Positions 41,242-51,089 of a stretch of 64,000 bases of DNA are shown here, piece by piece; within the stretch, counting starts at the first letter, position 1, and the number at the start of each line of letters is the position of its first letter. The translations under genes were made by a program, and so were the position numbers. Under the pieces are notes generated by a model, which worked only from the letters and a program-made list of their open reading frames with translations, searched no databases and was not told the DNA's origin. The DNA comes from an uncultured Chitinophagaceae bacterium (GTDB lineage: Bacteria; Bacteroidota; Bacteroidia; Chitinophagales; Chitinophagaceae), in contig CAIQDX010000087.1 in the NCBI GenBank assembly GCA_903870685.1, positions 1 to 64,000 of the forward strand, given 5' to 3'.

Positions 41242-42813
41242 CTAAGTTATTTTGTAGATAGCCCAATTCTTTGTTTCAAACATCAATACCGGATGAAATT
41301 CCTGACGTAATTCCATTTGATGAATATTGTAATCATTCAATACTGTAAAGGATCGTAGGCGATTTACATCTTTTGCAACACAAATAAATCTTGCTCCTGA
41401 TTTTGGATTTTCTACAATAGTTATAAAATTGTTTCTATTAGGAGATATTACAGTTTTCAATGTACGTAAATGAGCCATTATTTTATAAGCTGCAGCATCA
41501 TCCATCAATATTTTGTGCGTTTCATCTGTGATATCAGAAATGTAAGACGCTAATTGATATTCTTCCGAAGTTTGTCTCTCATCTTTCCACTTACTTATCT
41601 TTTTTATCGAGTTAAAAAACTGTTTTTCTTCCCGATCACTAGAACGTTTAAAATAAAAAATTCCGGAAAAAATATTTAATATGGCAGTTGCCATGATAAC
41701 AGGATATAGAAATTTTGTTTTGTATTTTCTTCCTGCATAAACAATAATACCCAACAAGGCAAGAATTAAAAAAATAAGATAATATTCAATGGTTATATAA
41801 ACCTGATTATCTAATAAAATAATTGATATAAGAATAAAAGGCGCAAGGAGTGTAAACAATTCATACAAAGTTCCTTTGAACATGAAAAATAACAATATCA
41901 GCAAAGGTGTTAACAATAAAATATAAGCCTGAAATACAATTTGCGTTTGTTCTGCAACATTAAACACAGCTCCGGATACAATCAAATTTCCAACAGAAAC
42001 ATTTCCTGTAACATGCCAATTTGCATATTGACTTGATAAAAAATAAGTAGCATTACCAGCATGATAATAGTTCAGTGTTTTAAACAAGTACAACGCACCA
42101 AAGGGTAATAAGAAGACAATAATATAAATAGCTATTGTTCTATTGGCCAATTTTCTTCTTTGCGATGTATTATTTAATGCAGTGAAATACTGTAAAATGG
42201 GTGGTTGGTCTTTTTGCAGTTTTAAACCTTCCAATGATATAAGAAAAATGAATGGAAAAAAAGCAAGTAATAACCAGATATAATTATAATCACAAAATAT
42301 CAAACATGAAAGAAATATGCTTGCCATCGAGAGATAATAAGAAGTTTGACTTCGATAGTATCTGAACAAACTTCTGAACAATAAGTAAAAAAATAAAAGT
42401 ATGGAAGCAACACCACGACCCGATACAGCCGAGAAAACAATGCCGGGGTGAAATACAAAAATCAATATCAACATTGGCACAAATACTCTTCTTGGCAGTT
42501 TTGATTTTGTAAAATCATTCAGCAATAAAAAAAATAGGATAGTTGTATAAGCGATGGATGCTAATATGGGAGCAAACGGATAACCAAATGGTGAAAATAT
42601 TATTCCTGATAAAAATACTAAAGTGGGAAATGTTGTACCAATAGTAAGTAGTGTATTTTCGTCTGCTTCAAAAAGTAATTTTATTTTCTCCGAGATAAAC
42701 ATCGCTTCAGAATGTTCATATCCGGTTCTATGTATCATCCATGCAACAATAATATAGTACACCAGTAAAAACAGTGATATAAAAATTGCTATGTATTTTT
42801 TTAAAAAAATCAT
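41242..42813 (-). CDS. Polytopic membrane protein of the polysaccharide locus
   Basis: 523 aa with about ten to twelve hydrophobic segments over residues 1-400 and a soluble C-terminal tail (about 400-523). I do not recognise the family. The topology (multi-TM with a periplasmic-looking C-terminal domain) resembles GT-C glycosyltransferases or chain-length/polymerase proteins, but no DxD-like loop motif is conclusive. It is the last gene of the minus-strand run kinase, BcsB-like, GT2, this gene, 6 bp after the GT2, so a role in making or exporting the same polysaccharide is likely. Confidence 0.6.
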   Translation of the reverse strand: MIFLKKYIAIFISLFLLVYYIIVAWMIHRTGYEHSEAMFISEKIKLLFEADENTLLTIGTTFPTLVFLSGIIFSPFGYPFAPILASIAYTTILFFLLLNDFTKSKLPRRVFVPMLILIFVFHPGIVFSAVSGRGVASILLFFYLLFRSLFRYYRSQTSYYLSMASIFLSCLIFCDYNYIWLLLAFFPFIFLISLEGLKLQKDQPPILQYFTALNNTSQRRKLANRTIAIYIIVFLLPFGALYLFKTLNYYHAGNATYFLSSQYANWHVTGNVSVGNLIVSGAVFNVAEQTQIVFQAYILLLTPLLILLFFMFKGTLYELFTLLAPFILISIILLDNQVYITIEYYLIFLILALLGIIVYAGRKYKTKFLYPVIMATAILNIFSGIFYFKRSSDREEKQFFNSIKKISKWKDERQTSEEYQLASYISDITDETHKILMDDAAAYKIMAHLRTLKTVISPNRNNFITIVENPKSGARFICVAKDVNRLRSFTVLNDYNIHQMELRQEFHPVLMFETKNWAIYKIT

Positions 42814-42819
42814 ATTTAT

Positions 42820-44688
42820 TTATGTTGCAGCTACCGCAGCAGATGCAGCAGCAGTTGCAGAAGATGAAACTTTAGTAAGTCCGTGATTTGTTTTTTCCCA
42901 GTAAAAAGGATTATAAATTAATTGCCATAATCCTTTGTAAGCAGCGATTGAATGCATTAGCCAATATACAGGATTCAATATCGCATACAATATCAGTTCG
43001 TAATAACGGCGTTTAAACACTGCCAGCATATTTACATACACCATCAACACATTACCTGCAATGAAATTAAAAGTTGCAACGTATAAAACCCAATCAGGAA
43101 ATAATTGTCGAACAAAATTAAAATTGAAAATGATGTAAAAAACGAAAAATAAAAGCAAAATTGGATACAACAAGAAAGTAAATGATGTTCCTCCAATAAA
43201 GAAGTTAAATCCAAAAAAACCTTGCCAACCAATTCTTCTTATCAATGCAACCGGATTCCGCATATGTACTAACCATGTTTGCATGTATCCTTTGATCCAA
43301 CGCGAACGTTGACGTATCCAATTAAATGGTTCGTTATTTGCTTCTTCTAAAGTTGTACTATTTACAACACCAATTTTATATTGTTTATCATAAACGCGTA
43401 CACCAAGATCTGCATCTTCTGTAACATTGAATGGATCCCAAGCACCTAATTCCAATAACTTGTTTAATTTAAAATGATTACTTGTGCCTCCTAACGGAAT
43501 AGGTACATCCAAGGTTTCTAAACCGGGTAACATATAATCGAACCAATAAGAATATTCCAATGTGAACATTCTTGTCAACAAATTTTCATTCTTATTAAAA
43601 TAATTTAAAGCGCCTTGTAACACCACAAAATCTTCGGGTAATTTCCTAAATAAAATAACTACTTTTTTCAATTGATCAGAATCAGGAACATCTTCTGCAT
43701 CATAAATCGTCAGCAATTCTCCTCTCGAAAAATATAATCCGTAATTACACGCTTTGGGTTTTGTTTTAGGTGCATGAAAAGGAACAACAATGGTTTCAAA
43801 ATTTGCAGGAAAATCGAGATCTCTTACTGCATTCAATGTTTTATCATCATCTTCTTCAATCAATAATTTTACATCAAGTTTACTTTTGGGATAATCTAAA
43901 CTTCGAAGATTCCAGATCAATTTACGAATCAGTTTATCTTCTTTATAAACGGGCAACAAAATTGTATAAACAGGTAATGACGCTTCATCCACTCTTTTCA
44001 CATCTGCTTTAGAAACTGCTTCGTGTAATTCCGACATTGAACCTCTTAATGCCAGATATAATTTAAACAGGATGGAAAATAAAAAAAATACGCTCGATAA
44101 AAGATTTAAAACAATTACTGTTGTAGAAAAAAACACGATTAACATCACAATATTCAATGCAATAAATCCAAAAAGAAATATTAACTGTGCATTGGTAAAA
44201 GTTACCAGACCCGAGCTGGCCTCATCTTTACGCATTAAACTGAATACTGCTTCTTTTACATAAAATTCTCCGCGAGTTTTATGTGCCAACCAAGTAATAT
44301 CCAGATCTGAAGCTGCAACAAATCTGATCTTTGTTCTGAACTTTACAAACAAACTGTTCATCAATTTTTCGTCAAATGGATCTGCAACAGCAACTAATAA
44401 TGTTCCATCAATCTCTTTTCGAAGGGGAATGTATAGGAAAGAATTTAAGTGTTGAATATCGCATTGATGAATAAAGACATCGTCGATCTCTTCGTTGCGC
44501 ACATCAATCAAAGGATAATTTTCTTTCTCTAAAAAAGCTACATAATTTTTTCGTGTAAGAAACCCAAAGTTCAAAGCAGTCTTAATAGGTGCGTAACTAT
44601 ACATTTCTGCAATAGATTCTACTTCATCTAATTTTTCGTTTGAAAAAAAACCAGATTCTGACATCTTGTGTAATCCGCACCGCGTCAT
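42820..44688 (-). CDS. Processive GT2 glycosyltransferase with GspE/MshE-type N-domain
   Basis: 622-aa membrane glycosyltransferase (ATG 44688 or 44664). Residues about 25-135 resemble the type II secretion GspE N-terminal/MshEN domain (YPLIDVRNEEIDD, IPLRKEIDGTLLVAVADPFDEKLM, KIRFVAASDLDI); two TM helices follow near 167-212. The GT2 core has LPVYKED, a DxD-type site YDAEDVP (Asp330, Asp333), the TED motif at 423-425 and QRSRW (Gln460-Trp464) of processive synthases; four or more TM helices end the chain. The same architecture is known in NfrB, whose MshEN domain binds cyclic-di-GMP. Here the RLG and Gln positions of that motif look altered (APIKTALNFGFLTRKN, FLEKE). Confidence 0.84.
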   Translation of the reverse strand: MTRCGLHKMSESGFFSNEKLDEVESIAEMYSYAPIKTALNFGFLTRKNYVAFLEKENYPLIDVRNEEIDDVFIHQCDIQHLNSFLYIPLRKEIDGTLLVAVADPFDEKLMNSLFVKFRTKIRFVAASDLDITWLAHKTRGEFYVKEAVFSLMRKDEASSGLVTFTNAQLIFLFGFIALNIVMLIVFFSTTVIVLNLLSSVFFLFSILFKLYLALRGSMSELHEAVSKADVKRVDEASLPVYTILLPVYKEDKLIRKLIWNLRSLDYPKSKLDVKLLIEEDDDKTLNAVRDLDFPANFETIVVPFHAPKTKPKACNYGLYFSRGELLTIYDAEDVPDSDQLKKVVILFRKLPEDFVVLQGALNYFNKNENLLTRMFTLEYSYWFDYMLPGLETLDVPIPLGGTSNHFKLNKLLELGAWDPFNVTEDADLGVRVYDKQYKIGVVNSTTLEEANNEPFNWIRQRSRWIKGYMQTWLVHMRNPVALIRRIGWQGFFGFNFFIGGTSFTFLLYPILLLFFVFYIIFNFNFVRQLFPDWVLYVATFNFIAGNVLMVYVNMLAVFKRRYYELILYAILNPVYWLMHSIAAYKGLWQLIYNPFYWEKTNHGLTKVSSSATAAASAAVAAT

Positions 44689-44750
44689 AGTCTTATCGTT
44701 TTATACTGCAACTGATATTTTCTGATTAATTAAAATTTTAATTTTAATCA

Positions 44751-46778
44751 TTATACTATTTCCTGTGATTTACGAACTCTGTTTCTAACCAAAAAGAAAG
44801 CAAGTAATACCAATCCCAATAAAATAATTAACAATAAGTATTTATAATTTTCCCAGAAGATGGCTAATTTATTTTTATCACCCTTGTAAGAAACAGAATT
44901 AGAGTCTTCCGGCATTTTAAAGAAATATTTACTAATACCATTACTGTTTGCAATTAAAACATTGCTCTCAATTTCTGTTAACTGTGTACTTAAATTTTTA
45001 ATTACACTTTCAAACGCATCTTTATGACTACTGTCGCCCAATGATGTTATCAATAAAACTGTATTTGATTTTTCTCTGAAAATTTGAGCCATGCCACTGT
45101 TTGAAAAATCGTTTATAGAATACGCCAATGAATTTTTGCTGTCTTTATATAATTGAAAATCTCTATCGTATTGAACAGGTAAATTGGTAAAATTCTTTAC
45201 GAAAGGATCATTCTTTTGTAAAAGAGCAATCAAATTAAATCCGCGCAGATCATCTAAAGTAGTTTTATCAGCGGCAACCAATTGAGGAATGATTAGTTTG
45301 TTGAAATCGTTTTTAATAGGCGCGTTTAATTGATACAATATTTCTCCTACAGAAGAAACAACATTAGAACCAAATAAAGTAGGTGATACAACTATTTTAG
45401 AAGGATTTTTTCTAAACTCTGCCGGGAAATTAAAGAAGCTGTAAAACTTATTTTCTCTTTCACCACTAAAAGTTAATGTAGAACTTTTTACGTTTACGAA
45501 TGCAAAGAAATTACTGAATCCATCCTTACAAATATTGGTACCCGGATGAAACCTGAATTCAACTTCTAAAGAATTAAATTTACTTAACAGGTATGGTTTA
45601 AGATCAATATCATCAATGAAATTTGTTCTGTCCATCAATGATGCATTGAAAATTAAATTTTGATTTAGATAAATATTTAAGAAGCCTCTGTCATCAGGTT
45701 TCAAAACAGAAAAATAACTTTCTAGATGAAATGTAAGTCGATTAGGAATTGCATTAAATTCACTTAATGAGAAATTATATTTTTGTCTTAATCCGCCAAT
45801 ACCTTCCATTAAAACTGGCGATCCACCAATCTCTTCTAAAGCAGTAATTAAAGGAGAGGGATTATCAACAGAAACATTACTAGGCACTCCTTCATTAATT
45901 AACATTCTATCGGAAAATGCACTACTTAATCTTTTATTACTTGCTAAAGTGTTGATCGCTTTTCTATATCCTGTTGCATCAGCGCCGGTAACAACCAATA
46001 CCAATTTTGAAACAAATCCAGTATTAACCCTTGCCATCTGTATTAAACCCTGACCAGCACCCAAAGATTGAATTACTTGTTTTACGGCTATCGGTAATTT
46101 ATCTGCAACACCAGTTATAATGCCACTTGGAACTGTATCCTGACCATAGGTTCCTGTATATATTTGTTGAGTAGGAGTATTTTGTTTTAATAAAGTATAT
46201 AATATTCCTCCGCAAGTCAAATCATCAAGGTCTGCATTGGAAGGAGTATAAACAGAATTAAATTCCTGTATCCATTCTTTAATGCTGCGCTTATAAGAAA
46301 ATAGACCATTATTATTTAATGACAAATAAGATGAATTTTTAACTGCAATCCAACAAGCAGGATTATCAACATCTTTACAATATTCATCTCCTATACTCAT
46401 CTTTGCAGATACTTTTAATTTTACGAATCGAGCATCAGGTTGTAAATATTTCCTGTTCATCGGAACAACAATCGTAAACATTGTATCAACCGGAGACGCA
46501 ATAATTCTTTGAGTAAATACGGGTTCATCCTTTAGATAAACGATCACCATCGAATTATTTGGATTCAATACCTGTGAAGCACGAATATTAATTACAATTT
46601 TCGTCTGATCAACATTATCATCAGGTTTTATTTTTAAAAAGTAGCTAAGCGAACCGGTAATACCAACAATAGATTCATCATCATATCCCATTGATTCGAA
46701 CGAGCGCTGGGATTGAGAAAACACAGTGCCAATACAGCTTAGCAATGCAATCAAAAAAAGAAAAGATTTAGATTTCAT
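44751..46778 (-). CDS. BcsB-like periplasmic subunit of a polysaccharide synthase
   Basis: 675 aa, with signal peptide MKSKSFLFLIALLSCIGTVFSQ, a large periplasmic body and one C-terminal TM helix (about 644-667, YLLLIILLGLVLLAFFLV) with a short basic tail. BcsB-family features include ITGSLSYFLKIKPDDNVDQ, RASQVLNPNNSMVIVYLKDEPVFTQRI and the DEYCKDVDNPACWIAV segment, repeated in the second half as FHLESYFSVLKPDDRGFL. In cellulose synthase BcsB guides the nascent chain through the periplasm and activates BcsA through its TM helix. Here the adjacent catalytic partner is the GT2 at 42820, 62 bp away. Confidence 0.82.
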   Translation of the reverse strand: MKSKSFLFLIALLSCIGTVFSQSQRSFESMGYDDESIVGITGSLSYFLKIKPDDNVDQTKIVINIRASQVLNPNNSMVIVYLKDEPVFTQRIIASPVDTMFTIVVPMNRKYLQPDARFVKLKVSAKMSIGDEYCKDVDNPACWIAVKNSSYLSLNNNGLFSYKRSIKEWIQEFNSVYTPSNADLDDLTCGGILYTLLKQNTPTQQIYTGTYGQDTVPSGIITGVADKLPIAVKQVIQSLGAGQGLIQMARVNTGFVSKLVLVVTGADATGYRKAINTLASNKRLSSAFSDRMLINEGVPSNVSVDNPSPLITALEEIGGSPVLMEGIGGLRQKYNFSLSEFNAIPNRLTFHLESYFSVLKPDDRGFLNIYLNQNLIFNASLMDRTNFIDDIDLKPYLLSKFNSLEVEFRFHPGTNICKDGFSNFFAFVNVKSSTLTFSGERENKFYSFFNFPAEFRKNPSKIVVSPTLFGSNVVSSVGEILYQLNAPIKNDFNKLIIPQLVAADKTTLDDLRGFNLIALLQKNDPFVKNFTNLPVQYDRDFQLYKDSKNSLAYSINDFSNSGMAQIFREKSNTVLLITSLGDSSHKDAFESVIKNLSTQLTEIESNVLIANSNGISKYFFKMPEDSNSVSYKGDKNKLAIFWENYKYLLLIILLGLVLLAFFLVRNRVRKSQEIV

Positions 46779-46789
46779 GTTGTTTCAAT

Positions 46790-48166
46790 TTATAATTGGG
46801 TACAGGTAAATTCAATTCTATAAAAATTATGAGTGGTTTCACTACTGTTATAAGTAAATGTTCCACCCATGGTTTCAGTTAATTTTTTTGCAACCGAGAA
46901 TCCCATTTCCGAATCGTTTTGCACAGATTCTTTTAATGATCTGTATGGTTGTAATTTAGTAAACAGTTCATTCATCTTTGCAATTCCAACTAATTTGCCA
47001 ATATTAATTACTTCAATTACACATTTATCATTTTGGCGGTTGGTATGCACCGTTAATATAGATCCTGTTTCGGCATATTTAATTGCATTCGTCAATAATT
47101 TAAACAACACCTGACTAAGAAATAATTTATCTAAATAAACTATTATTGGTGATGCCGATAAATGCAATTGTAAATTTATTTGTCGTATTTGTGCTGCATC
47201 AGCTGTATCTAAAACTGCTTGTTCTACAAATGGGCTGATGTCGAATTTTTCTTGTGTAAATTGTACTTTCGCTTCATCCCTATCGGCCGATGCTGCAAGT
47301 TTTTCAGAGAGATAATTGAGTTTTTCGTTACCGGCACTAATGTAATTTAATATTTCTTTTTGCTCTACAGAAAGGTTATCTGATTTGTTTTTCAACAAGT
47401 CTAACGACATCTGAATAGAGCCTGTGAAATTTCTGAAATCATGCAACATTATATTAAGTGTGTTGTGACGATAATCGTTCAACACTTTTAATTTTCTATT
47501 GGCATCTTCAATAACATATTTTTGATCGCTTATTTTTTCATTCTGCTCCAGCATTCGGTTATTGGCTTCATCAATTAAAATATTTTTTGCAATTTCTCTT
47601 TTTAAGATGGAATGACGATTAAAGGCAATCAAACAAGAAAAAGCAGAAACAACAAAATAAACACCACCACCATGCGAGATCAGTAAATTGTATTTGTCAA
47701 ATCTTTCCTGAAATGAAAAAATTAGAATGATAATCGCATAAGTAAATAAACAAGTAATGATTGAATAAACCGGCGGCCAAAATATGGCGGTGTTGATTAA
47801 TAAAATAACTACAGAAAGAATTAGAAAGTAAGGCAACACAAAATTTATTGGTATCACACCGCAAAATATTGCGTGCATCAAAACATTAACTGCAATAAAC
47901 CACGTGACAGTTAATATATAATTCCACTCCTTTTTATTACCAAAAATGTAGATGATGTAAGAGATAATTGTAACTATTAATCTTACCAACATCATATCAA
48001 CCCAGGCAAATCGTACAAATAAAAAATCTAATAACCAAAATAGAGGTAGAGAAAATAAAACAGTCCACATAACCACATTCGAATAATAGACGCCTTTCTT
48101 ATTAAGTTCGCTCGCAAGCTCCTGTTTATTTATATTTACATAAGAAAATTTAAAATTGCTAGACAT
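46790..48166 (-). CDS. Membrane histidine kinase with atypical ATP lid
   Basis: 458 aa: six or seven TM helices (about 30-185), a coiled linker (about 195-232), then the kinase core. The H-box is LHDFRNFTGSIQ with His242; the N-box is LFKLLTNAIKYAE with Asn360. The G1 box is degenerate: the usual DxGxGI reads NIGKLVGI (388-395), and the second glycine box is SEMGFSVAKKL. It may therefore be a weak kinase, a phosphatase or a pure sensor. It is the first gene of the polysaccharide run, 11 bp before the BcsB-like gene; no response regulator is present in the window. Confidence 0.8.
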   Translation of the reverse strand: MSSNFKFSYVNINKQELASELNKKGVYYSNVVMWTVLFSLPLFWLLDFLFVRFAWVDMMLVRLIVTIISYIIYIFGNKKEWNYILTVTWFIAVNVLMHAIFCGVIPINFVLPYFLILSVVILLINTAIFWPPVYSIITCLFTYAIIILIFSFQERFDKYNLLISHGGGVYFVVSAFSCLIAFNRHSILKREIAKNILIDEANNRMLEQNEKISDQKYVIEDANRKLKVLNDYRHNTLNIMLHDFRNFTGSIQMSLDLLKNKSDNLSVEQKEILNYISAGNEKLNYLSEKLAASADRDEAKVQFTQEKFDISPFVEQAVLDTADAAQIRQINLQLHLSASPIIVYLDKLFLSQVLFKLLTNAIKYAETGSILTVHTNRQNDKCVIEVINIGKLVGIAKMNELFTKLQPYRSLKESVQNDSEMGFSVAKKLTETMGGTFTYNSSETTHNFYRIEFTCTQL

Positions 48167-48206
48167 ATCGGGTATTATGCAGTCCTGAAAATCAATTCTT
48201 TATTCT

Positions 48207-49307
48207 GTGAAAATATACATTAAAGTCATAAGAGTTTTAATATGGATAAATTTCTTCCTTTGGGTATCACTATCCACATTAAGTGCAAAACTTCAGGAAG
48301 ATAATTTAGGCGATATTAAAAAAAAATTAGGAGTCGGCATTAATATTTCTTTATTCGAACATTATTGGACATCTTCCGAACTTTTGTTGAAAGAAGATAT
48401 TACCCAAAAATTAAACAACATTTCCAAAGCCGGATTTAAAACTGTTCGCCTTCCAATAGCATTCGAATTTTTTTTAGCGCCTAATTCTTTCAATCTGCAA
48501 CCACAGATCATTAGCAAACTAAAAGAAATATATGCGGAATGTTCGTCAAAAAATTTAAACCTTATCATTACTTTTCATTATGGCAAACTCAATGACAGCA
48601 ATATTTACAGTGAAACAGAACGTATTTCATGGATTTGGAAACAGTTACAAAGGCAATTTAAAGGACAAGGATATTCATCACTTTTTTTCGAGTTGTATAA
48701 CGAACCTGTGATGAACGGTAATCTTTGGAAAAATACGATCACTGAGATTATTCAGAATTTGAGATATGAAGACAATGACCGAATTTATATTATTGGAGCA
48801 ACAAATTATAACAGTCTCGACCAATTAATTGAAATGGGAAAATTGCCCGACAATAAACTTTTTTACACTTTTCATTTTTATGAACCCTTTATTTTTACAC
48901 ATCAAGGAGCTGATTGGACTGAAAATAAAACTTTTGTTAGAGATCTTCCTTATCCATACAAAAAAAGCAAAATGCCGCTTGCAGTTCCAGAAAAAGGAAG
49001 TTCTGTTGAAAAAGATTTGAGCAAATATCCTCATGAAGCAACAAATGAATTCATTGCAGAACGTCTTAAAACTGTTGCTGCATTTTGTTTAAAAAATAAT
49101 ATGCCACTTATTTGTACCGAAACAGGTGTTATAAAACTTGCAGATGAAAAATATAGGAAACGTTATTTAGAAGATGTGATTTTTGATATGCATGATTTGG
49201 GAATTCAACCAATTTTGTGGGACTATGATGATAAATTTTCAATCAAAAAAAATGATGAAGAAATTGAAAAGTATTTACATAAGTGGTTGATGAAAATCAA
49301 AAATTAA
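48207..49307 (+). CDS. GH5 endo-glycanase, exported
   Basis: 366-aa glycoside hydrolase family 5 (cellulase-like) with an N-terminal hydrophobic segment (about 7-27) that is a signal or anchor. Catalytic residues are visible: acid/base Glu166 in LYNEPV and nucleophile Glu305 in TETG; also RLPIAFEFF with the conserved Arg, and TFHYGK, TFHFYEPF. It is divergent from the histidine kinase with a 40-bp shared upstream region. A glycanase beside a BcsB/GT2 pair plays the part BcsZ (GH8) has in cellulose operons: trimming or releasing the chain. This role is inferred from position. Confidence 0.86.
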   Translation: MKIYIKVIRVLIWINFFLWVSLSTLSAKLQEDNLGDIKKKLGVGINISLFEHYWTSSELLLKEDITQKLNNISKAGFKTVRLPIAFEFFLAPNSFNLQPQIISKLKEIYAECSSKNLNLIITFHYGKLNDSNIYSETERISWIWKQLQRQFKGQGYSSLFFELYNEPVMNGNLWKNTITEIIQNLRYEDNDRIYIIGATNYNSLDQLIEMGKLPDNKLFYTFHFYEPFIFTHQGADWTENKTFVRDLPYPYKKSKMPLAVPEKGSSVEKDLSKYPHEATNEFIAERLKTVAAFCLKNNMPLICTETGVIKLADEKYRKRYLEDVIFDMHDLGIQPILWDYDDKFSIKKNDEEIEKYLHKWLMKIKN

Positions 49308-49345: not shown

Positions 49346-50245
49346 ATGGATACAATTCTTTCTTTAATTAATGTCAGCAAAAATTATGGTCCTATAAAAG
49401 CATTGAACAATGTTTCGTTCGATGTACCGGAAGGTTCTGTGTTTGGAATATTGGGTCCAAATGGTAGTGGCAAAACCACAATGCTCAGTATCATTCTCGA
49501 TATTTTAAAACCAAATAGCGGTGGCTTTTCATGGTTTGGCGAATATGGCGGATCGCCTGAAAGCAGAAAACAAATTGGTTCACTTTTAGAAACGCCCAAT
49601 TTTTATCATTACTTATCTGCTGTTGATAATTTAAATATAACCCAAGCCATCAGCGGAAGAGGAACAAAAAAAGATATTGACGAAGTACTTGAGATTGTAA
49701 ATCTTACTCATCGCAAAAGAAGTAAATTCAGTACATATAGTTTGGGAATGAAACAACGCCTTGCAATTGCTGCTGCATTGTTAGGAACGCCAAAGGTTTT
49801 GGTTTTGGATGAGCCTGCAAATGGATTAGATCCTGAAGGAATTGCAGAGATAAGAAAATTAATAAAACAATTGGCCGACCGTGGTGTAACCATTATCATG
49901 GCAAGCCATTTATTGGATGAAGTTGAGAAAGTTTGTACACATGTTGCTATCTTAAAAAAAGGAACATTATTAACTGCAGGTAATGTTGATGAAGTTTTAG
50001 TAAATGAAGATATTATTGAGATCGCATCGTCAAATATGGAGGCATTAAAAACAGCATTCGAAAATTATAAAGGTGTTACCAACTTAAAATTAGATGGAAA
50101 AACGGTACATCTTTTCTTTCCTGCGGGAACAGCAGATATTGAAGAAGTAAATCGTTTTTGTTTTCAACAAGGCATTACGTTAAATCATCTAACCATGAAA
50201 CGTAAAAGTTTGGAGACTAAATTCTTTGAATTAACTAATAACTAA
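49346..50245 (+). CDS. ABC exporter ATP-binding protein
   Basis: 299-aa ATPase with Walker A GPNGSGKTT (about 37-45), signature YSLGMKQRLAIAAAL, Walker B VLVLDEPANGLDPEGI and the switch His in ASHLLDEVEKV. The C-terminal ~85 residues form the extension typical of ABC-2 type exporter ATPases. It pairs with the permease 16 bp downstream. The substrate is unknown. Confidence 0.93.
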   Translation: MDTILSLINVSKNYGPIKALNNVSFDVPEGSVFGILGPNGSGKTTMLSIILDILKPNSGGFSWFGEYGGSPESRKQIGSLLETPNFYHYLSAVDNLNITQAISGRGTKKDIDEVLEIVNLTHRKRSKFSTYSLGMKQRLAIAAALLGTPKVLVLDEPANGLDPEGIAEIRKLIKQLADRGVTIIMASHLLDEVEKVCTHVAILKKGTLLTAGNVDEVLVNEDIIEIASSNMEALKTAFENYKGVTNLKLDGKTVHLFFPAGTADIEEVNRFCFQQGITLNHLTMKRKSLETKFFELTNN

Positions 50246-50261
50246 TCACACAAATAATTAT

Positions 50262-51089
50262 ATGCAATCACTTATAAAAATAGAATGGCTTAAAATAAAA
50301 AAGTATCCGGCGTTTTGGTGGATGCTTGTTATTGTTGCATTAACGTATCCCGGCATTAATTACATGTTTCATCATGTTTATGAAAGTGTGATTAATAGAA
50401 AAGATATGGCAGGTAATGTTGCAAAATTTTTATTGGGTAATCCATTTTCTTTCCCTGATGCATGGCATTCGGTTGCATATTTTTCTTCATTCTTTGTAAT
50501 CGTTCCTGCATTATTAATCATTATGTTGGTGAGTAATGAATACACTTATAAAACCAATCGTCAAAATATCATAGATGGTTGGAGTCGCAGTCAGTTTATT
50601 CATGCAAAAATGATCGATGTTTTTATCATCAGCTTTATTGTTACACTTTCTTTCACCATTGTTGCTGCGGTATTTGGATTTTATTATTCCGATGCTGTAC
50701 GTGTAACTCGCTGGGCCGAGGAACTGCAATACATTCCATTATTTTTTCTGCAAACATTCGCGCAATTAAGTTGGGCTTTTTTATTAGCCTATTTAATTAA
50801 ACGTGCATTCATTGCCTTGGGTATATTTGTTTTCTATTCTTTGATCATAGAGAATATTGCAAAGACTTATTTCAAATTTAAGGAATGGAATGCCCGTGAA
50901 TTTTTTCCTTTCGAAATTTCTAACCGCCTTTTACCAATGCCTAATTTTTTAGGAAAAATAGATGCAGCTTCAAATGAAGCATACAAAAAAACATTGGTAG
51001 AAATTAACTGGCATATTCTTTACACATTGATTTTAACTTCGGCTATCTGGTGGTTATGTTATGCGATAAATAAGAAAAGAGATTTATAA
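50262..51089 (+). CDS. ABC-2-type exporter permease
   Basis: 275 aa with six hydrophobic segments and the NEYTYKTNRQNIIDGWSRSQFIHAKM loop characteristic of ABC-2 permeases that partner EcsA/BcrA-type ATPases. It forms an exporter with the preceding ATPase gene. The substrate is not readable. The gap after it contains a dispersed repeat. Confidence 0.87.
   Translation: MQSLIKIEWLKIKKYPAFWWMLVIVALTYPGINYMFHHVYESVINRKDMAGNVAKFLLGNPFSFPDAWHSVAYFSSFFVIVPALLIIMLVSNEYTYKTNRQNIIDGWSRSQFIHAKMIDVFIISFIVTLSFTIVAAVFGFYYSDAVRVTRWAEELQYIPLFFLQTFAQLSWAFLLAYLIKRAFIALGIFVFYSLIIENIAKTYFKFKEWNAREFFPFEISNRLLPMPNFLGKIDAASNEAYKKTLVEINWHILYTLILTSAIWWLCYAINKKRDL

Follow-up and report, generated by a model that had tools for sequence, protein, structure and literature searches.

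Positions 41242-49307 of a 64,000-nucleotide stretch of DNA from an uncultured Chitinophagaceae bacterium (assembly GCA_903870685.1, contig CAIQDX010000087.1; the whole stretch is termed the window) hold a polysaccharide synthase locus built around a family 2 glycosyltransferase (GT2) with an N-terminal MshEN domain. The locus represents a real, widespread variant of synthase-dependent polysaccharide secretion whose input from cyclic di-GMP (c-di-GMP) has apparently been lost. In the reading that we consider probable, a decorated, acetylated beta-glycan is made and exported via a new outer-membrane family, under two-component rather than c-di-GMP control; within Bacteroidota the locus would form the inner-membrane core of a synthase-dependent system for exopolysaccharide. 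Computation shows the gene content and its conservation, the missing GGDEF, PilZ and BCSC_C matches, the decay of the motif, the predicted GT-C fold and the co-occurrence and linkage of the new family, whereas the roles in catalysis and export, control by kinase and receiver and the acetylated product are inferences. Textbooks name c-di-GMP as the switch of cellulose-type synthases in bacteria. This widespread family keeps a receptor domain, but the binding site is mostly lost and the known messenger-making enzyme is absent from nearly all carriers tested. No earlier description was found: searches of open-licence papers turned up none on the locus in Bacteroidota, and searches on XagB and on mannan synthases, like an Actinoplanes paper (PMC13390465), gave nothing with a bearing on it.

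Four close-set minus-strand genes (41242-48166; intergenic gaps of 6, 62 and 11 bp) make up the unit, and a glycanase gene diverges from them across 40 bp. The kinase gene (46790-48166, minus strand) encodes a 458-amino-acid membrane histidine kinase (HATPase_c, 1.5e-12). The BcsB-like subunit (44751-46778, minus strand) has 675 amino acids and matches PF03170 over the cut-off at 3.6e-19. The GT2 synthase (42820-44688, minus strand; 622 amino acids) is of the processive type according to Pfam, profile matches in PDB and motifs; its MshEN region (PF05157; residues 1-140, 44269-44688, minus strand) carries degenerate c-di-GMP motifs. The polytopic protein (41242-42813, minus strand; 523 amino acids) is a proposed glycosyltransferase of predicted GT-C fold, identified from its open reading frame and predicted structure; its Pfam search gave no family over the cut-off. 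The divergent gene (48207-49307, plus strand) encodes a 366-amino-acid GH5 glycanase with a signal-like N terminus (PF00150, 3.5e-31). An earlier note, made from the letters of the window, had proposed a non-canonical polysaccharide synthase unit of just this arrangement and these gene identities; the list of open reading frames and the Pfam matches bear it out. A promoter and terminator scan found fewer sites than the mean of shuffles.

A GT2 scan of the collection genome_contigs gave 293 relatives, and the neighbourhood counts below use the best 80 of them. They come from Chitinophagaceae, Mucilaginibacter, Pedobacter, Spirosoma and Fibrisoma, with GT2 identity of 61-83%. BcsB lies upstream of GT2 in 77 of the 80 loci and the kinase in 72, and the polytopic gene is directly downstream in 79. 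For kinase, BcsB and GH5 the testable loci are the 65 with more than 7 kb of upstream sequence; both BcsB and the kinase are present in all 65, and the divergent GH5 in 49. The grouping of these genes is more than chance because it is conserved across 80 related loci, and the search in other Bacteroidota that the earlier note had suggested thus finds the operon to recur. Compared with Mucilaginibacter, Pedobacter and Spirosoma, the window GT2 is 60-65% identical, against ~20-37% for BcsB, kinase and polytopic protein.

The source draft genome has 3.18 Mb, with 100% completeness and 1% contamination as derived by tools; the closest relatives with a name belong to Chitinophagaceae (e.g. Hydrotalea and Sediminibacterium). 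Synthase carriers number 17 of 195 genomes in a family set and 11 of 395 in a phylum set. The family set gave 20 GT2 matches; G053, G124 and G136 were left out, their sole matches being 27-33% identical, from residue 185 onward and without MshEN, and G121 and G073 were counted despite partial or split GT2 genes. Genome handles in the sets used for GGDEF, carrier and phylum counts overlap, and some are probably one genome twice (e.g. G219 and G575). In two distant GT2 relatives (G047:C53:149139-150455 and G053:C74:11890-13122; 32-33% identity) the match begins past the MshEN region, and their gene neighbourhoods are different.

The GT2 part of the window protein spans residues 241-467 (PF13632, 2.7e-16; PF13641, 1.9e-15). 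DAED (330-333), TED (423-425) and QRSRW (460-464) are invariant in 36/36 sequences. Profile matches in PDB are to BcsA (1.2e-13), PilB (5e-5) and the mannosyltransferase PcManGT (6yv7, 9e-5); TIGR03030 is matched at 2.9e-16, yet with 58.7 bits against a cut-off of 699.1 bits. A structural model (pLDDT 77) has PcManGT as its nearest fold (Z 25.8 over 339 residues), then BcsA (22.5) and hyaluronan synthase (21.4). Mean column conservation is 0.89 in the catalytic part and 0.53-0.60 in MshEN. From homology and the intact catalytic motifs, GT2 would assemble a linear beta-linked glycan and thread the chain across the membrane to BcsB.

No PilZ domain was found in the GT2 protein or in any of 23 genomes (the source and 22 other carriers), and BCSC_C (PF05420, the C-terminal domain of BcsC) was likewise absent from all 23, with a positive E. 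coli control; the earlier note was right on both counts. GH8 is missing from the five locus genes, the source genome as a whole not having been searched for it. The note had also considered that ordinary cellulose partners might lie elsewhere in the genome. With no PilZ, no BCSC_C and a single BcsB gene detected in the source genome, none turned up as far as tested, the genome-wide searches not extending to GH8 and BcsQ.

In the window protein MshEN is matched at GT2 residues 57-137 (5.5e-10). According to the accessible part of PMC5013675, MshEN domains bind c-di-GMP by means of two motifs, each 24 residues long and with R, LG, G, L, L and Q at fixed places, and one homologue lost binding through changes of such key residues. 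We scored the 14 key positions across the two motifs, RLGxx(L/V/I)(L/V/I)xxG...LxxxLxxQ. The window protein keeps 4/14 and 40 phylum members keep 1-6/14; outside the phylum, a Geobacillus relative keeps 12/14 and one from Hyphomicrobiales UR115 9/14. The second motif is replaced in the phylum by a stretch like IKxALNFG(Y/F)xxRKxY, whose K36, G42 and R46 are invariant in 36/36. From these alignments the domain has apparently decayed as a c-di-GMP site and is apparently still under selection. GGDEF, moreover, has no match in the source genome even at E 0.1, and among carriers it was found in 2/41 handles and 0/14 further phylum handles (2/55). On the absence of GGDEF and PilZ and the decay of the MshEN motif we rejected functional c-di-GMP control, and the link to c-di-GMP drawn in the earlier note is given up for the source genome.

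It is therefore very unlikely that the locus is after all a conventional cellulose or Nfr-type system under c-di-GMP control, with its other parts encoded elsewhere in the genome. Such a system would account for the presence of BcsB and a BcsA-like GT2, and the MshEN of NfrB does bind c-di-GMP (PMC8669469, accessible part); the source genome, however, lacks GGDEF, PilZ and BCSC_C, has a single BcsB, and has lost most of the MshEN motif, in searches that did not extend to GH8 or NfrA. The absence of diguanylate cyclases largely rules such a system out.

Most likely the operon histidine kinase has taken over control, acting via a stand-alone receiver of the kind encoded near divergent relatives. 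The kinase, which the earlier note had placed in the unit, is present in every testable locus; in an alignment of 53 kinases His242 is found in 90% and Asp346 and Asn360 in 100%. Six divergent loci (Fibrisoma L108 and L111; L242, L243, L244 and L245) encode stand-alone receivers of 121-147 amino acids close to the operon, each with a confirmed Response_reg domain. Proteins of this length leave no room for a DNA-binding output, which makes direct control of the synthase a natural guess. For the window locus we would accordingly expect control through its kinase and such a receiver, with MshEN retained despite the decay of its c-di-GMP site and the lack of diguanylate cyclases in nearly all tested carriers. 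A more specific version is that MshEN was re-purposed after the hosts lost the messenger, now receiving its signal from the histidine kinase and receiver, with the polymer leaving by a new class of small, TPR-less outer-membrane barrel; we offer this tentatively, as somewhat doubtful. If true, phosphorelay rather than a nucleotide would switch this exopolysaccharide synthase.

The retention of MshEN, with K36, G42 and R46 invariant, could also mean that the domain now binds another nucleotide (e.g. of cGAMP type, or ATP) and takes no part in two-component control. Most operons indeed have no adjoining receiver, and the MshEN of V. cholerae binds cGAMP weakly (PMC5013675, accessible part). The same V. 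cholerae domain binds neither c-di-AMP, ATP nor GTP, however, and the constant presence of the kinase in testable loci and the receivers near six divergent operons speak for two-component control; we think the other-nucleotide explanation unlikely.

The system appears to include a second locus, which would serve acetylation, de-acetylation and probably export. Five loci (two from Pedobacter, one from Spirosoma, two from Fibrisoma) have an extra gene in the BcsB-GT2 interval, encoding a protein of ~280 amino acids with a signal-like N terminus. G, S, L, F, T and Y are abundant in its family. Pfam (8 members searched) and NCBIfam (4 members) gave only sub-threshold, chance-like matches, and PDB sequences gave none up to E 10. 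Peaks of alternating hydrophobicity number 6.8 vs 3.9 in shuffled sequences, although an esterase control likewise exceeds its shuffle (12.7 vs 9.0). That the protein is an outer-membrane beta-barrel is our guess from such features of its sequence.

The source genome has two unlinked homologues outside the window, G000:C130:45738-46529 (plus strand) and G000:C51:12384-13184 (minus strand), each adjoining an AXE1-family acetyl esterase gene. In the family set the predicted barrel occurs in 20/195 genomes, 17/17 with the synthase and 3/178 without (Fisher 1e-21), and in 10/10 synthase genera vs 0/91 others; these 2x2 and genus counts were compiled by hand from the synthase and barrel searches. 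Neither they nor the further counts below allow for shared descent, and the positive genera may form one clade. The three genomes with barrel but no synthase (G024, G044, G154) belong to genera that have the synthase. One of them, G024, is of the same genus as the window; it has no synthase match at E 1e-20, which could reflect synthase loss or an assembly gap. The barrel was present in 29/29 further carriers, of which five supplied the profile, so that 24/24 are independent. In the phylum set it was found in 9/11 carriers vs 2/384 others, the latter two matches being partial and weak. The profile used there contains both source-genome sequences, and the source match in that set is by construction; the source-genome search used another profile. 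The two missed carriers have weaker homologues, in G293 next to BcsB (L242) and in G396 two genes from GT2 (L243), and G439 (L244) and G580 (L245) have the barrel gene between BcsB and GT2.

In lineages where the barrel gene is not in the operon it is unlinked to the synthase, and an acetyl esterase gene usually adjoins it. Among 31 barrel loci chosen from the source-genome, family-set and further-carrier searches, 29 have an AXE1 esterase gene within 300 nt and 17 an AT3 acyltransferase gene within 4 kb. In the second locus that we propose, an AXE1-type acetyl esterase is joined by the ~280-amino-acid predicted barrel, which would serve as the exit, and often by an AT3 acyltransferase. The association with esterases, together with duplication of the barrel in several loci, would also suit a role in the uptake or modification of acetyl-glycan, at a locus that travels with the synthase. 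We regard this as rather improbable: the barrel gene lies inside the synthase operon, in the BcsB-GT2 interval, in the five named Pedobacter, Spirosoma and Fibrisoma genomes and in L244 and L245; the five named loci show no esterase in the available flanks; and no BCSC_C protein was detected in the 23 genomes to do the exporter's job. By its co-occurrence and linkage with the synthase the barrel protein is most likely the outer-membrane exit, which names a candidate exporter family with no database match over the cut-off. Locus L192 (G138:C15:670000-688000) has an AT3 acyltransferase gene followed by three alternating esterase-barrel gene pairs, an arrangement that suggests repeated duplication.

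The polytopic protein is predicted to adopt a GT-C transmembrane fold. An AlphaFold model from 43 sequences has pLDDT 87 and pTM 0.89. VIA-align gives Z 17.4 to ArnT (5f15; 396 residues, 4.5 A), 17.8 to ALG12 and 17.6 to Pmt4, and the 17 Foldseek rows below E 0.001 are all OST, DPY19, ArnT, ALG9 or PglB, with modest TM-scores of 0.37-0.49 by query length. A Geobacillus counterpart, annotated as GT39, aligns over 409 columns (hhalign E 1.1e-8, probability 95.6), and counterparts in Geobacillus, L242 and L243 have sub-threshold matches to PMT or PMT_2. In the 43 sequences E42 is invariant and E36 is kept in at least 90%, both directly after the first long helix; they may correspond to the acidic residue that GT-C enzymes have in the first periplasmic loop. 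For a gene of the UR115 locus, taken as another candidate counterpart, hhalign gave a probability of only 12.5, and it was not retained as one. GT-C enzymes use polyprenyl-phosphate sugars. We therefore propose that this protein, using such a donor, adds a decoration or a cap to the chain in the periplasm, a likely GT-C role for an unannotated protein.

In an alignment of 49 non-redundant GH5 sequences, from which those below 25% identity to the window GH5 were left out, E166 (in NEP) and E305 are conserved in 100%; by the GH5 pattern these residues would be the catalytic acid/base and nucleophile. By analogy with BcsZ and CcsZ the enzyme may clear or trim chains. For the polymer itself, the probable candidates on these data are two, an acetylated beta-1,4-glucan and a beta-mannan. 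For the suggestion of the earlier note that the product is a glycan other than cellulose there are indirect hints of mannan, and that the polymer is beta-mannan or glucomannan, which would be compatible with our overall reading, is a serious possibility, a little short of even. In UR115 the gene that diverges from the GT2 locus encodes, instead of GH5, a hydrolase of GH113 (1.6e-32), a family that holds beta-mannanases; the Geobacillus operon contains a gene for a ManC-type enzyme; and PcManGT is the nearest fold to GT2, with a sequence match besides. Against this, the solved chains closest to the GH5 carry the title endoglucanase (including CcsZ 6uje at 3e-18), GH5 being a mixed family, BcsA is the better sequence match of GT2, a common fold shows no function, and the Geobacillus and UR115 relatives are only 46-48% identical.

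Several observations weigh against the overall reading. Two carriers encode GGDEF, and motif decay does not prove loss of c-di-GMP binding. A best Z of ~14 can be background for mostly helical models, which leaves the Z of 17 for the polytopic protein clear, not overwhelming. An aromatic residue occupies one of the last three positions of the barrel protein in only 21/40; AT3 is absent beside both source-genome barrel genes; and the five named operons with the barrel inside show no esterase in the available flanks, as noted. The case for receivers is uneven too: among genome_contigs loci, within the available flanks, the receiver profile matched only L108, L111, L122, L047 and L103, and those of the last three are not beside the operon, leaving the two Fibrisoma loci as the only ones with an adjoining receiver. 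UR115 has two downstream receivers, one with a LuxR-type DNA-binding domain. In the Chitinophagaceae sequences inspected the ATP-lid boxes of the kinase look weak; the kinases of L049 and both Pedobacter loci lack the phospho-acceptor His.

In the two Pedobacter kinases (L094, L112) the ATP-lid boxes are broken as well. These two and the L049 kinase may be pseudokinases retained in the operon.

Compared with known systems, the locus resembles Bcs (BcsA-BcsB-BcsC-BcsZ) in its GT2 with processive signature, its BcsB partner and its associated glycanase. It differs in having MshEN instead of PilZ, no BCSC_C protein or GGDEF in the genome, and GH5 with no GH8 at the locus, plus a GT-C-fold partner and a histidine kinase. 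With E. coli NfrB-NfrA-YbcH it shares the fusion of GT2 to MshEN. The earlier note had called the N-terminal MshEN 'as in NfrB'; the domain is N-terminal here (57-137, GT2 at 241-467), but in NfrB it is C-terminal to GT2 and binds c-di-GMP (accessible parts of PMC8669469 and PMC8669472), and here the motif is degenerate and BcsB present. The locus is not a member of Bcs, lacking PilZ and BcsC, nor of Nfr, from which its domain order and c-di-GMP motif depart.

Clostridial ccsZABHI has a GH5 hydrolase, a cellulose-synthase-like GT2 and acetylation genes; CcsB is described as an analogue of BcsB, BcsC has no equivalent there, and the accessible part of the paper mentions no MshEN or GT-C partner (PMC7710045). 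The pss operon of Listeria (L. innocua, L128) combines GT2 with a BcsB-like protein, but its GT2 is 28% identical, has no MshEN match, and a gene annotated as a diguanylate cyclase follows BcsB. B. subtilis ydaJKLMN has a glycosyl hydrolase, and B. subtilis was positive in the BcsB profile control; in both pss and yda, c-di-GMP acts via a separate receptor, YdaK in yda (accessible part of PMC13274460).

Outside the phylum the closest locus found is that of a Geobacillus stearothermophilus plasmid (L125), with BcsB, GT2 (47.7% identical) and a polytopic GT39-like protein in the same order. Its MshEN motif is nearly intact by sequence, though the Pfam MshEN match is below the cut-off (E 0.019); it differs further in its ManC-type gene, its Gram-positive host and the absence of a kinase or GH5 match within the stretch examined. 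The idea that the locus mixes parts of Bcs and Nfr was not kept, and is not needed, because this plasmid has the same trio of BcsB, MshEN-GT2 and polytopic protein. The plasmid is typed as conjugative, and transposase and recombinase genes lie in the same stretch. Hyphomicrobiales UR115 (L126) has an MshEN-GT2 (46% identical), a divergent hydrolase and two-component genes downstream; it differs in the GH113 and in four GGDEF matches over the cut-off in the record, and the gene in the place of BcsB gave no BcsB match. By analogy, the system may work like Bcs, Nfr, Ccs, Yda and Pss, with a membrane GT2 polymerase, accessory proteins and, mostly, a hydrolase. The result is a defined two-locus gene set, open to knockout in cultured Mucilaginibacter, Pedobacter, Spirosoma or Sediminibacterium.

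An ABC transporter pair (49346-51089) adjoins GH5. It was considered as part of the system and not kept; the pair stands beside many Chitinophagaceae loci, with synteny kept, and beside Mucilaginibacter loci it does not occur as a pair.

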